Of a stretch of DNA of 36,625 nucleotides, positions 29,237 to 35,798 are shown piece after piece. The notes under the pieces are model-generated. The model made no database searches and was not told where the DNA came from. It was given only the letters and a program-made list of their open reading frames with translations. Position 1 is the stretch's first letter, and each line of letters begins with the position of its first letter. Origin of the DNA: Candidatus Campbelliibacteriota bacterium. Its GTDB lineage: Bacteria > Patescibacteriota > Minisyncoccia > Phycocordibacterales > UBA1006. The translations under genes were made by a program, and so were the position numbers. The stretch lies in NCBI GenBank assembly GCA_002698305.1, contig NZWR01000003.1, forward strand, positions 74,794 to 111,418. The letters are read 5' to 3'.

Positions 29237-29671
29237 TTAATTTAGATTTGGTAATAATAGTTCTTCGTCTGGTGATTCTTCGACTTGGGATTGCTGGGCT
29301 TCATCCAGCGTTGTGAAGTAGTCAGGAGCTTCGGCTACCGATACAAGGGTGTACGAATATTCTCGTGAACTGCCGAATGAATCTTCAAGTCGTACTCTAA
29401 TTATAGTATGACCAGGGGCAAGAGCAATGGTATGCCTAAACTGCGAATCATCTTTGATGACAATCGGGTATCCGTTAATGCTTATGTGCTGGGTGTTTTT
29501 AACTCTTCCTACAATAGTTTTAGACATGTTGTCACTATACTCATAGTCTTGAATGTTTATATCAGTTAAGAGTGGCCCATCAATGATGCCGCTGAATCTG
29601 TTATAGGCAAAGAGGAGAATACCGAGACCAAGGAGGATACCGAGGGTACTGATAATAATTTTTCTCATCAT
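29237..29671 (-). CDS. Membrane-anchored Ig-like/PEGA-like small protein
   Basis: N-terminal [38 protein letters not shown]. Overlaps the ftsK stop (ATGA-type coupling). Confidence 0.7.
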
Positions 29672-31926
29672 ACCTCTACGGATCCGTCAGTATCGATATC
29701 TTCTGGATCAGCAGCCAGGTCCTCGGCCTTTTGGTGCACGTCTCGGGGTTTTGATCCGTTTTGTGGACCGATAATTCCCCGCTCTTCAAGAAGGTCAATA
29801 ATCCGAGCAGCTCGGCTATAGCCAATTGATAATCTACGTTGAAGGTACGAAGTAGAAGCCTTCTGACTTTGAACAACAACAGCGATAGCTTCGTCTACCA
29901 TCGGGTCTTCGTCGTCATCACTGGAAAGCGTAATACCTCCAGTACCATCTTCGACGCTGTCATCAGAGATGCTAATCGTATCTTCTAGTTCGTATTTATA
30001 GTTTTTCTTGATGTAATCAACAACACTTTTCACTTCTTGTTCTGATACAAACGGACACTGAATACGGATAGGTTCATTTGCACCTTCTCCTTTATAGAGC
30101 ATGTCTCCATAGCCAAGCAGTTTTTCAGCTCCGCGGCCATCGAGAATCGTTCGCGAATCAACTTGTGAAGCTACCTTAAGCGCAAGACGTGATGGTACGT
30201 TTGCCTTAATCAGTCCGGTAATAACATTTACCGATGGACGCTGGGTCGCAAGCATCAGGTGAATACCAACTGCACGGGACATTTGTGCAAGTCGCACAAT
30301 AGAGGCCTCAAGTTCACGCGGGTATGAGCTCATAATATCTGATAGCTCATCAATAATGACAACAATATATGGCATCTTTTCTGGAAGCTCTCCTGATTGT
30401 TCTTCAATTTCTTCAGGGGACAGTCCTTTATAGGCAGGGCCAACAATGCTTTTATGGTACGAACTGATGTCACGTACGGCTTGTTTTTGCAGAACATCGT
30501 AGCGCCTTTCCATTTCTTTGACTGCCCATTTTAACGAGAGAACCGCTTTTTTAGGATCAGTAATAACGGGCGTTAGCAGGTGAGGGATTTTTTTATACAA
30601 GGTCATCTCAACCCGCTTCGGGTCAATCATAATAAACCGCAACATGTCTGGCCCATTTTTGTAGAGCAGCGACATAATAATATTATGAATGGTTACAGAT
30701 TTACCAGCACCGGTAGCTCCAGCAATTAGGGCATGCGGCATTTTACCAATGTTTGCGAAATGTGATTTTCCAGATACTCCTTTTCCAAGTGATACCAATA
30801 ATGGTTTTGATGCATCATTAAAGGTATCTTCTGCAAGCAGGGTACCAAGACCAATCGTTGATTTCTTACTATTGGGTACTTCAATCCCGACCAGTGATCG
30901 TCCTGGGATTGGTGCCTCGATTCGAATTGATTTAGCAGCAAGTGCTAGAGCAAGCTCGTTCTGCAGGCTTGCAATCTTGGATAAACGTACGCCTTGGGCA
31001 GGCTTCATGGCGTACCGCGTTACGGTTGGCCCGATTGAGATTTCATCCATTTCTACTTCAATACCAAAGTTTGAAAGGGTTCGCTTGATAAGGTTTGCAT
31101 TTGCTTTGATATCACCGGTTGATGGTTTCCCTGAACTCTTTCCAAGAAGTGAAAGTGGGGGAACGGTATACGATGATGCAAAGACTGCCTGAGAATCAAT
31201 CGCAATATCGTCATCTTCAGATTGAGATTTTTTCTTTTTCTTTGTAGCTTTCTTTGTTTCCGCAGGTTCTTCTATTGCTTCGGTGTGCGTGTCGTGTTGG
31301 GCGCTTTCAAGAGCCTTACTCACTTCTTCATTAATCCGATCAACTTCCTCTTGGTGAGCTGCTCGTTCTTCCATCCGTTCCTCGATGGTATCTTTAACTT
31401 TCTTCAGTGAAGAGAGTTTAGGATCAAAAATAATAAATGAAAGAATACCAATCAATCCAAACAAAAGAATGAGAGAAAAGTACACATCAAATCCCGCAAC
31501 CAAGTTTGAGCCAATCATTTTCCCTATGATTCCCGATGCATCAAGTTCAGCTCCAGATCCTAAAATATCAATAATCCCCAAGATGCCGAGGAATACCCCA
31601 AGAAAAGCAAAACGATCTTTCAATGAAGTATCAATTTTCTTAAATCCACGGTAGGAAAAGAAAAGACACAGTCCAATCAATGCAATATAGCCAAAGCCAA
31701 AGAGACTCCAAATAACGGTACCGAAAATAAAGTCACCAATCGTTCCTGCATATGATGCGGCACTCATACCAATGAATAACGCAAAGAGGAGGTACATGAT
31801 ACCTGCTACATATCTGTTTTTTGGTTCATACGACATGTCACGGAATGAGAACTTTTTCTCTACCGATGGTCGTTTCTTTTTGCTTGCGCGCACTATTTTT
31901 TTCTTTGTTGATTTCTTTCTTGCCAT
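29668..31926 (-). CDS. ftsK: DNA translocase FtsK/SpoIIIE
   Basis: N-terminal TM helices, HALIAGATGAGKSVTIHNIIMSLLY Walker A, IVVIIDELSDIM, GIHLMLATQRPSVNVITGLIKAN, C-terminal gamma domain (STSYLQRRLSIGYSRAARIIDLLEERGIIGPQNGSKPRDV). Start at 31926 (MARKKSTKKK) behind a strong SD, not 32073. Confidence 0.95.
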   Translation of the reverse strand: MARKKSTKKKIVRASKKKRPSVEKKFSFRDMSYEPKNRYVAGIMYLLFALFIGMSAASYAGTIGDFIFGTVIWSLFGFGYIALIGLCLFFSYRGFKKIDTSLKDRFAFLGVFLGILGIIDILGSGAELDASGIIGKMIGSNLVAGFDVYFSLILLFGLIGILSFIIFDPKLSSLKKVKDTIEERMEERAAHQEEVDRINEEVSKALESAQHDTHTEAIEEPAETKKATKKKKKSQSEDDDIAIDSQAVFASSYTVPPLSLLGKSSGKPSTGDIKANANLIKRTLSNFGIEVEMDEISIGPTVTRYAMKPAQGVRLSKIASLQNELALALAAKSIRIEAPIPGRSLVGIEVPNSKKSTIGLGTLLAEDTFNDASKPLLVSLGKGVSGKSHFANIGKMPHALIAGATGAGKSVTIHNIIMSLLYKNGPDMLRFIMIDPKRVEMTLYKKIPHLLTPVITDPKKAVLSLKWAVKEMERRYDVLQKQAVRDISSYHKSIVGPAYKGLSPEEIEEQSGELPEKMPYIVVIIDELSDIMSSYPRELEASIVRLAQMSRAVGIHLMLATQRPSVNVITGLIKANVPSRLALKVASQVDSRTILDGRGAEKLLGYGDMLYKGEGANEPIRIQCPFVSEQEVKSVVDYIKKNYKYELEDTISISDDSVEDGTGGITLSSDDDEDPMVDEAIAVVVQSQKASTSYLQRRLSIGYSRAARIIDLLEERGIIGPQNGSKPRDVHQKAEDLAADPEDIDTDGSVEV

Positions 31927-31934
31927 AGTTATTT

Positions 31935-31940
31935 CCTCCT
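31935..31940 (-). promoter_or_regulatory. Shine-Dalgarno sequence of ftsK
   Basis: AAGGAGGAAATAACTATG on the minus strand. Confidence 0.8.
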
Positions 31941-32170
31941 TAAATATACTAGTATCATACCATATATAGGTATAAGCCCTTTTTCTTCTACGGGGTGCAA
32001 TCGCGCAACCATAATCAAAAAAAACGATTGTACATATATATAGTAAAAATAGTAAGAAATACACCCCTTTCAAATCTCAAGGTCATATCATAGAGAATGT
32101 TGACAGATTCAATATGATAAATATAATAAAAGACATAGAAACGTTTTTAAAACGTATACTAAAAGACAAT

Positions 32171-33145
32171 ATGCAATCTCAAAAAGACAACAATAAAAAT
32201 AGCCTAGAAAATAAGGCTGGTACAGGTGAATCATCTGCTGCTATTACTAATTATCACGGTGTCTTTAATCACGAAGCTTACCGAGTAACAGCTGATGCAT
32301 CAGGAAACATTACGACAGCTATTTATATGATTAGTGATTTCCTTGAAAATACTGATCCGTTAAAGGCAACAATTCGCAGCACCGCTGTCGGTATTATGGA
32401 TAGTCTTTACCGAGCGCTGCATCTTGATAAGAAAGAACGCGCCGAGATTTTGGCCAAGGCTTACAATGACTATTATGCGCTTATCTCATATTTGAAGGTA
32501 ATTCAGAAGAATGGTTTTGTATCAGAGATGAATTACAAGGTTATTAGTAGAGAAATTGAAAAAGAACGTACGCGAATCCATGCACACCTTGAACGGAGTC
32601 TCCCGTATGATAAAAAACGCAGTAGAACGCGCGCTGTAGAATCGTTTAGTTTTGCATCTGATTTTTTTGATGATACTAGGGAGAACAATACATCAAGGTC
32701 ACAAGGCACACGTTCTGATAGTCCTGCCCCCAAACCAGTATCACAGCAGAAAAGCCAGAAGAGTGTAAAAGACAGTAAAGAATCACACGAAGATTCATTA
32801 AAGACAAACGAAAGTACATCTTCAGAAGAAGAGAAGCCAGTGTTCGTAGAAAGAAATCCTAACCGAGCACTTGATAATTACCGCGCCCGAAAAAACGCTG
32901 GAAAGAAAGGAGTGAAACAGAAAGCTAAGCGGAAGCCAAAACTTAATGAAGCGAAGATTGAACGTAAGGAAAATATCATTAAGATACTGAAACAAAAGAG
33001 TGATGCATCTATAAACGACATTACCGCCTTGATGAAGAATTATTCTTCAAAGACAATTCAACGTGACCTGAAAGAATTAATAAAAGACAACCTTGTGAAG
33101 AAAGAAGGGTCACGACGATGGAGTACCTATAATCTCACCTTCTAA
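32171..33145 (+). CDS. C-terminal winged-HTH (DeoR-like) putative regulator
   Basis: ERKENIIKILKQKSDASINDITALMKNYSSKTIQRDLKELIKDNLVKKEGSRRWSTYNL. Track start at 32114 lies within a TTGACA-16-TATAAT promoter-like sequence (32100-32127), so the downstream ATG is preferred. Confidence 0.75.
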   Translation: MQSQKDNNKNSLENKAGTGESSAAITNYHGVFNHEAYRVTADASGNITTAIYMISDFLENTDPLKATIRSTAVGIMDSLYRALHLDKKERAEILAKAYNDYYALISYLKVIQKNGFVSEMNYKVISREIEKERTRIHAHLERSLPYDKKRSRTRAVESFSFASDFFDDTRENNTSRSQGTRSDSPAPKPVSQQKSQKSVKDSKESHEDSLKTNESTSSEEEKPVFVERNPNRALDNYRARKNAGKKGVKQKAKRKPKLNEAKIERKENIIKILKQKSDASINDITALMKNYSSKTIQRDLKELIKDNLVKKEGSRRWSTYNLTF

Positions 33146-33164
33146 AAAAGAGGAACGCTATCTC

Positions 33165-33202
33165 ATACAAAAATGTGCCAAAGCTACGGCACATTTTTGT
33201 AT
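33165..33202 (+). terminator. Rho-independent terminator
   Basis: ATACAAAAATGTGCC aaagctac GGCACATTTTTGTAT, 15-bp perfect stem. Confidence 0.9.
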
Positions 33203-33271
33203 AGAATAATGACCATATTTATATGGGCACACAGAACAACAAATCACCTGTTTCAGCTACCTGTACAAAAC

Positions 33272-33300
33272 TTGCAAAAAACAATATTTTGTGGTATTTT
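33272..33300 (+). promoter_or_regulatory. Putative promoter of the structured non-coding region
   Basis: TTGCAA (33272-33277), 17-nt spacer, TGG-TATTTT (33295-33300). Confidence 0.4.
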
Positions 33301-33306
33301 AACGAA

Positions 33307-33740
33307 AGACTGTAATGTTTCGGGCGCTCGCCCGTCATATACAGTGAGCACCTCTTGTGCCTTTTTTAACACCGTTAAGAAATGGCGCGGGTGCTCAGGT
33401 ATAATATTTCGGTTGTAATGTATTTGCGCGGTGCTTGCATCATGTGATACACTTCTGCCGATGCCCGATTTAATCGGGTCATTATATTTCTTTCGAGTTT
33501 TATATTTGAAAAACTCGAACGCTCATAACGGGTGCCGTCATCCTGTCGAAAATTATGGATGGCAACAGGTTCTTTATGCGCGTAAAGAACCTGGTGAACG
33601 GTGGAGCTCGGGCTGTCGAAAACCCGCCACCCACAAACCACTTATTTAGAAACCATTGTGAACAATTTTTATTATTCGTTTTATTACTTTGTAAAAATTA
33701 TTCACGACTTCTAAATAAATTTTTATAAAAATTTATTTAA
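33307..33740 (+). ncRNA. Candidate structured non-coding RNA / long 5' leader of the S-layer-like gene
   Basis: No convincing ORF; consecutive hairpins at 33309-33345, 33346-33396, 33460-33483, 33492-33519, 33533-33564, 33566-33593, 33600-33631, 33642-33718, 33712-33739. Confidence 0.55.
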
Positions 33741-33758
33741 CAAACACAGATAGAAATT

Positions 33759-35798
33759 ATGAAAAAATTCGTAACTATCGCTGCTGCAGCTGCTTTCCTT
33801 TTCACAGGACTAGTAAACACTGCATCAGCACAAACTACGCAGGAACAAATTGAAGCTCTGCTTGCACAACTTGCAGCACTTCAAGGAGAAACTGTAGTAT
33901 CAGGTGAATGTGCAGCAGAATTTACCTACAGTGGAGTTCTTCGACAAGGATCTCGAGGACAAGCTGTTATGGATCTGCAAGCAGACCTAAACACATTTAA
34001 CAACGCTGGAATCGCAGTTGATGGTGCATTTGGACCAGGAACTCGAGCAGCAGTAGTATCATTCCAAGCTTCACAAGGACTTGTGGCTGACGGAATCGTT
34101 GGACTACAAACAGCTAACGCTCTAGGTGCAGTTGCTCAAGCTTCATGTGCTAACGGTGGAAACAACGGTGGAGACATGAACCTTCCAGAAGGATGTACTT
34201 CAACTATGGGATACTCACCAGTAACAGGAGAACGTTGTGATATGGACATGGATGACATGGACGAAGACGACGACGAAAACGATGCTGATGAAGACGACTT
34301 CCCAATGACCGGAGACGGTGACGAAGCTTCACTTGAAGATTACAACTTCACATCAGAAGATGATGCGCAAGAAGGTATGATGGAGCACGTTGCTACAGCA
34401 GAATTCGATGTTGAAGACGGAGATTTCCGGCTAGACCGAATCGATCTTACATTCGTACCTGACGCTGGAAATGACGAAGACGAACCATGGGATTCATTTG
34501 AAACTATCACTCTTCAAGTTGACGGAGACGAAATCGCCTCAGAAGACGTTGATGATGAAGATGACTGGCTAGACGATGACGAACCATACGAATTCCGATT
34601 CAATGACATTGACTTTATCGCCGAAGACGGAGATCAAGTTGAAGTTGAAATTTGGGTAACTGCTCAAGACGGTGTTGACGGAGTTAACTCTGGAGACGCT
34701 ACTTGGACAATTTACATCGAAGAAGAAGGAATCCGAGGTCTTGATACTGCTGGTATTGATCAATACACAGGAGATGAAGACGATACAGTAACATTTGATA
34801 TTGAAGAAGAAGGAGACGATGCAGATCTTGACTTCAACGAATCTTCAAACAATCCTGATGAAGAAACATTAGCAGTTGATGCTGACACTGAATCAGAATG
34901 GTACGATCTTGTTATTGGAGATCTTGAAGCTGAAGGAGCAGAATTTGAAATCGAAGAAGCTACAGTAGAAATCGTACTTTACGATGTATCTGCTGATGCT
35001 GACCTTGATGATGCTGCTGATGTACTCTTTGACGAAGTTATTTCAGATCTTGAAATGATGTTCGGAGACGAAGAATTTGATGATTACGATGTTAACACTT
35101 CACTTACAGGTGACAATGCTGCAACTCTAGGAGATGTAGATGGAGACGGTGATAACAACGATGCAACTTATACTGTAATCTTTGATCTTGATGATGAATT
35201 CATGCTTGATGATGAAGAAGTACAAGTTTCAGTTATGGTTGAATTCCAAGAAGCTGAAGATTACCCACAAGGGCAAGAAATCATGGTGAGCATTGTTGAC
35301 CTTGAAACTGACGGTCCTGACGGAGCTGATGTAGATATCGACGTTGTAGACGGAGAACTACACTCACTTTCAATCTTTGCTATTGATGCAGAACTTGAAG
35401 ATGAAGAAAACAGCGAGCGTGTAGAAACTTACACCATTGCAATTACTGCTGATGATGAAGGAGAAGATGTTCTTATTCCAGCAGGAGTAGAAGAAGAAGG
35501 ATCAGAAGACGCAACGACTGGATTCGTATACGTACTAGAATACGGAACAGTTGCATCTGCAACTATCGACAACGATGATGACCTTGATGAAGAAGTTATC
35601 GGAGGAGTTACATACTACCGAGTTGATGCTGGTGAAACTGAAGAGTTTGAAGTACGATTCAACTTTGCAGCTGACGCAGCAGCAGAAGACGATGGTAACG
35701 TTACTATTGAAGCAATTCAATATACATCAGAAGATGGAGCAGGGGTATTCCCAGTAGAAGTTCTTGATGATGATGTAAACTACTCAGCAAACGACTAA
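33759..35798 (+). CDS. Acidic S-layer-like secreted protein with N-terminal peptidoglycan-binding domain
   Basis: Signal peptide MKKFVTIAAAAAFLFTGLVNTASAQ; PG_binding_1-like RQGSRGQAVMDLQADLNTFNNAGIAVDGAFGPGTRAAVVSFQASQGLVADGIVG; remainder extremely Asp/Glu-rich. Confidence 0.88.
   Translation: MKKFVTIAAAAAFLFTGLVNTASAQTTQEQIEALLAQLAALQGETVVSGECAAEFTYSGVLRQGSRGQAVMDLQADLNTFNNAGIAVDGAFGPGTRAAVVSFQASQGLVADGIVGLQTANALGAVAQASCANGGNNGGDMNLPEGCTSTMGYSPVTGERCDMDMDDMDEDDDENDADEDDFPMTGDGDEASLEDYNFTSEDDAQEGMMEHVATAEFDVEDGDFRLDRIDLTFVPDAGNDEDEPWDSFETITLQVDGDEIASEDVDDEDDWLDDDEPYEFRFNDIDFIAEDGDQVEVEIWVTAQDGVDGVNSGDATWTIYIEEEGIRGLDTAGIDQYTGDEDDTVTFDIEEEGDDADLDFNESSNNPDEETLAVDADTESEWYDLVIGDLEAEGAEFEIEEATVEIVLYDVSADADLDDAADVLFDEVISDLEMMFGDEEFDDYDVNTSLTGDNAATLGDVDGDGDNNDATYTVIFDLDDEFMLDDEEVQVSVMVEFQEAEDYPQGQEIMVSIVDLETDGPDGADVDIDVVDGELHSLSIFAIDAELEDEENSERVETYTIAITADDEGEDVLIPAGVEEEGSEDATTGFVYVLEYGTVASATIDNDDDLDEEVIGGVTYYRVDAGETEEFEVRFNFAADAAAEDDGNVTIEAIQYTSEDGAGVFPVEVLDDDVNYSAND
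35400..35487 (+). repeat. 88-bp perfect direct repeat, copy 1
   Basis: GATGAAGAAAACAGCGAGCGTGTAGAAACTTACACC...CCAGCAGGAG identical to 36538-36625. Confidence 0.97.

Follow-up and report, generated by a model that had tools for sequence, protein, structure and literature searches.

The DNA in front of a putative surface-protein gene most probably encodes a structured RNA that forms a 5′ leader, about 450 nt long, in the mRNA of that gene and acts in cis. A probability of roughly 0.8 is assigned to this reading. The helices of this RNA are real on the + strand, they are under selection, and they are linked to the surface gene across the order. As for a cis-acting mRNA leader, helices with compensatory change lie on the coding strand, and their position before one gene family is constant.

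Locus and extent of the leader

The window, that is, the whole stretch of DNA analysed here, comprises 36,625 nt of a 571-kb draft genome (G000). In this window, an intergenic gap of 613 nt (33146-33758) separates a gene with an HTH_DeoR domain (HTH gene; stop at 33145) from the gene of a secreted protein with a PG_binding_1 domain (surface gene; start at 33759) (Table 1). The product of the latter is a putative S-layer protein; among the surface proteins of the bacterium it is probably the main one, and it probably faces the host cell. The effective number of codons (ENC) of the surface gene is 31.0 vs. 39-55 in the other window genes measured, and this strongest codon bias is, as far as codon usage can tell, a sign of very high expression. 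The order of FtsK gene, HTH gene, a gap of 260-1280 nt, and surface gene is conserved. The HTH gene is followed by a long gap and a secreted surface-type gene in nearly every examined genome of the order, and the same arrangement recurs beyond the order, in several further orders of the class. In genomes of the same genus, homologous sequence with 67-82% identity lies at the same place. The FtsK and HTH_DeoR-domain genes adjoin the surface-protein leader across the order, and the HTH protein may be a regulator of the surface gene.

The sequence-only reading had described a hairpin array at 33307-33640 with five named hairpins and no credible ORF. All five hairpins (P1, P2, P5, P6, and P9) are present at the places given. 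The proposed end at 33640 did not hold; the element continues to the start codon, and P7, P8, P10, P11, and a perfect 28-nt AT palindrome had been overlooked. About ten helices fill 33309-33739 of the gap and reach up to the start codon of the surface gene. The lack of a credible ORF was borne out: there is no conserved protein frame, and internal starts give frames of very different lengths in relatives. A small leader peptide or another protein-coding gene was therefore rejected by these differing frame lengths and by the absence of a Pfam match.

Table 1. Coordinates of the leader RNA, its helices, and adjoining features in the window.
Feature	Position	Strand	Remark
FtsK translocase gene	29668..32073	-	Divergent neighbour
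HTH_DeoR-domain gene	32114..33145	+	Conserved neighbour 5′ of the leader
Terminator-like hairpin (intrinsic) of HTH gene	33169..33198	+	Sequence AAAAATGTGCC..GGCACATTTTT; precedes the leader
Leader promoter TTGCAA-17-TATTTT	33272..33300	+	Homologous box in several same-genus genomes
P1 helix	33309..33345	+	Predicted RNA 5′ end
P2 hairpin	33346..33396	+	Arms differ between species
TTTGC..TGNTAGAAT-like conserved element	33423..33453	+	P4 hairpin and/or second promoter (candidate)
P5 hairpin	33460..33487	+	3′ flank GGTCATTATAT conserved
P6 hairpin	33492..33519	+	Arm-swap test 6/2000
P7 short hairpin	33520..33534	+	CGCTC/GAGCG in relatives
P8 hairpin	33537..33563	+	Loop UGUCGAAA; order-wide counterpart carries CUUGUGUCGAU
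P9 hairpin	33566..33593	+	Loop UGCGCG; arm-swap test 0/2000
P10 hairpin	33600..33631	+	Loop GUCGAAA
P11	33642..33718	+	A (UUAUUUA) pairs with B (UAAAUAA) around AU-rich loop UUAUUNNUUUUAUUA
AT palindrome, perfect, 28 nt (B and C)	33712..33739	+	Invariant in genus; B pairs with A or C
PG_binding_1 protein gene, secreted, putative S-layer protein	33759..35798	+	Very strong codon bias

Folding strength and compensatory change

The strong folding that had been claimed for the region was confirmed. The predicted folding energy of 33300-33645 is -129.4 vs. -93.2 for shuffled sequences (z = -6.55), and none of 100 shuffles is as low. Over the final 300 nt of the leader, the median z among 53 relatives is -5.7, compared with -0.8 for the HTH region (P = 8e-11), and leaders from other orders have a median z of -3.0.

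Compensatory change was examined by alignment and also by an alignment-free arm-swap test, in which the 5′ arm of each species is paired with its own 3′ arm or with those of other species. In an RNAalifold consensus of seven genus members, 19 of 70 pairs are changed on both sides. The structured alignment of P8-P10 from ten genus members gives a covariation of 0.355, whereas shuffled alignments give 0.185 (0/500 as high) and slid ones at most 0.18. In the arm-swap test, own-species partners pair and foreign ones do not for P5, P8, P9, P10, and P11 (each 0/2000); the energies of own vs. swapped arms are -12.6 vs. -4.8 for P5 and -12.4 vs. -4.8 for P11. The corresponding values for P2 are -18.0 vs. 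-7.5 (0/5000 permutations). The arms of P11 are wholly replaced in G002, G004, and G001, and the pairing is preserved. The covariation check in relatives suggested by the sequence-only reading thus found helices that are kept while their arms are replaced.

Distribution in the order and the class

A covariance model built from the genus (R1) matched genus members only, and the search was therefore based on another model, which describes the P8 hairpin in its order-wide form. This form of P8, ACTA-stem-CUUGUGUCGAU-stem-TAGT, had been spotted by inspection. Of 297 genomes in the order, 72 contain a match to the model (E up to 0.5). Among the 21 strongest non-training matches, 19 lie upstream of a gene with a signal peptide, namely a surface-protein gene, and the other two are unassigned; 15 of 20 weaker matches are also upstream of a signal-peptide gene, and the remaining five are probably due to chance. 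Covariation over the 33 sequences of the order-wide alignment is 0.508 vs. 0.283 in shuffled alignments (0/500); since this alignment was fitted to the model, the slid control, which gives at most 0.27, is the fairer one. A search of the class and the phylum with covariance model R3 gave no true match outside the order, and two matches in the phylum were antisense to coding genes.

Common to the wider group are both GUCGA-loop hairpins, the last hairpin, and the location of the element, and P1-P7 and P9 are known in the genus only. In the order, 27 of 53 gaps have GTCGAA close to the start codon, where 4.2 are expected. In other orders of the class, two GUCGA-loop hairpins are found at the same places: of 15 leaders, 14 contain GTCGA in their final 150 nt (mean of 1.6 after shuffling, none on the reverse strand), and a second GTCGA lies further upstream in 12 of the 15. 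The arms of P10 covary in these orders (0/5000), and those of P8 do so more weakly (17/5000).

Proposed function of the leader

Transcription from the promoter at 33272-33300 would yield the RNA as the leading part of the surface-protein mRNA, and the RNA is predicted to set the output of this very highly expressed gene through translation start and/or mRNA stability. The GUCGA-loop hairpins P8 and P10 may be recognition sites for a putative trans-acting factor, and the 3′ module may alter how accessible the start codon is; no Shine-Dalgarno sequence accompanies this codon. In this module, segment B (UAAAUAA) could pair alternatively with A, forming P11, or with C, forming the palindrome just before the AUG; the palindrome ends 19-20 nt 5′ of the start codon. 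Calculated pairing probabilities for A-B are 0.63-0.95 in eight of ten genus members, in G006 and G005 B-C is the preferred pairing or coexists with A-B, and B-C reaches 0.59 in one genus member. In this model, the alternation of A-B and B-C suggests a switch, and a translation switch at the surface gene is plausible. Since the palindrome is invariant, B-C pairing in RNA draws no support from covariation, and the palindrome may instead be a DNA or protein site. In other genera of the family, different AT palindromes stand at the start codon, for example AATTAAAATTAATTTTAATT and TTATAAGTACTTATAA (leaders of G012, G018, G020, G013, and G014). A kissing interaction of the P8 and P10 loops through UCGA was considered but is not obligatory, as several genomes have UCGA in P8 without GUCGA in the P10 region.

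A broader proposal, to be taken as tentative, places the leader in an RNA family that spans the class within Patescibacteria. There, the two GUCGA-loop hairpins would be bound by a dedicated factor, which may be the surface protein or its sensor, and would flip A-B/B-C at the start codon lacking a Shine-Dalgarno sequence. If true, such a switch would allow RNA-based tuning of the dominant surface protein in a reduced genome whose mRNAs are mostly leaderless. It is also possible, though not probable, that the leader stabilises the mRNA passively, with no sensing or switching. Strong 5′ hairpins and the variable peripheral hairpins P2, P5, and P6 fit a need for a stem rather than for its sequence, and the surface gene is highly expressed; however, the sequence conservation of the GUCGA and UUAUUA loops and the invariance of the palindrome point to specific recognition. 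The leader is conserved and tied to one surface gene, and both a covariance model and reporter fusions are suitable for testing it.

Probable transcription together with the surface gene

The promoter that had been placed just upstream of the hairpins, TTGCAA-17-TATTTT, is indeed there. It ends 8 nt before P1, and the RNA is therefore predicted to begin with P1. TTGACTTT occurs in 16 of 53 gaps vs. 1.7 in shuffled ones, at about -370 to -680 from the ATG with one outlier at -1067. The conserved element at 33423-33453 (TTTGC..TAGAAT) may act as another promoter, may form a hairpin in the RNA, or may do both; TTTRCA-N-TATAAT is found in 14 of 53 gaps, compared with 0.2. In a pattern scan, no terminator-like site was found from P6 to the AUG. 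A single weak terminator-like site was located at P5 (33463-33479), far upstream of the gene, and the rate of such sites equals chance. A transcription attenuator was also rejected, because a G+C-rich terminator hairpin followed by a T run is missing before the gene and the sole weak site occurs at the chance rate. From the position of the promoter and the absent terminator, the leader appears to be co-transcribed with the surface gene.

The sequence-only reading had left the choice between a stand-alone ncRNA and a long 5′ UTR. The 5′ UTR is clearly favoured, because the RNA, which begins next to a promoter, is always upstream of the surface gene and is not separated from it by a terminator. 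A separate RNA that is ended or processed before the surface gene is improbable: large multi-helix RNAs without a protein frame do exist as separate transcripts, and the helices here are dense and have their own promoter, but all clear copies precede the surface gene, the conserved 3′ hairpin and the palindrome extend almost to its start codon, and no credible terminator lies between RNA and gene.

Shine-Dalgarno-like motifs are rare, being present in two of 53 surface genes and one of 22 window genes. A -10 box is found at -17 to -11 in 12 of 28 window genes (3.6 expected), and the window genes look mostly leaderless by these motifs. Thus, the 450-nt leader would stand out as a costly exception that is kept by selection. 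A TATAAT-like box 12 nt 5′ of the start codon is seen in many of the 28 window genes.

RNA or DNA element

It is very improbable that the inverted repeats act at the DNA level as operators or as mobile or recombination sites. The reverse strand of 33300-33645 folds nearly as well as the forward one (z = -6.18), and the AT palindrome is invariant. However, the RNA is assigned to the + strand because G-U pairs exceed A-C mismatches 77 to 21; in addition, GUCGA loops are strand-specific, being absent or rare on the opposite strand, and the element is present as a single copy per genome at a fixed place. A scan of 264 Gb for the exact 27-mer of the palindrome gave ten matches, nine of them in Patescibacteria records, of which six match contigs already included; no viral contig was among the matches. 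The sole match without a Patescibacteria label is a Neomarinimicrobiota contig (L094).

Identity and relation to known RNAs

With Rfam 15, the window and 20 related loci have no family above the gathering cut-off except one tRNA outside the leader, and relaxed thresholds gave chance-level scores only, with nothing relevant. A literature search found no description of the leader element. The proposal of an undescribed structured RNA is upheld by conservation, controlled compensatory change, strand polarity, and absence from Rfam. The earlier statement that hallmarks of RNase P RNA, 6S RNA, tmRNA, and SRP RNA are lacking likewise agrees with the absence of Rfam matches. RNase P RNA was rejected, as RF00010 is unmatched here and RNase P RNA is encoded elsewhere in G003, G005, and G010, all of which carry the leader RNA; 6S RNA was rejected as well, RF00013 being unmatched in seven genomes. 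A divergent housekeeping RNA has hardly any probability: 6S RNA is missing in these seven genomes of the order, but the leader has no Rfam match, RNase P RNA lies elsewhere in three carriers, and a strict link to one gene is atypical of housekeeping RNAs. The genomes in which the 6S RNA match is absent are G000, G003, G005, G010, G022, G031, and G052, six of them nearly complete.

Gene regulation in Patescibacteria is very poorly known. As a kind of element, structured mRNA leaders have been described before, and what is new is the family, its signature, and its distribution. In Thermus and Lactobacillus, slpA mRNAs for S-layer proteins have long structured 5′ leaders with a proposed role in translation or stability. 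The present leader, likened to them by description only, is similarly long and likewise belongs to the mRNA of a surface protein with high expression; it differs in its approximately ten helices, conserved GUCGA-loop hairpins, order-wide covariation, and lack of a Shine-Dalgarno sequence. Leaders of ribosomal-protein mRNAs are autoregulatory, and similarly to them, a class-restricted RNA always precedes one highly expressed gene here and conserved loops suggest a protein ligand, whereas the gene product is secreted and mimicry of another RNA is not seen. With riboswitches it shares the cis position and a 3′ module with mutually exclusive pairings beside the start codon, but Rfam is unmatched, no metabolite-type conserved core was identified, and metabolic genes are not linked. 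OLE, GOLLD, and ROOL RNAs are stand-alone or associated with other genes; they likewise have many helices over hundreds of nucleotides, while the present RNA gives no match to them and is tied to the surface gene. As a minor observation on the same gap, G001 and G004 (L058 and L048) have a common inverted repeat, GGTGACACCACTTTTGC...GCAAAAGTGGTGTCACC, upstream of the leader.
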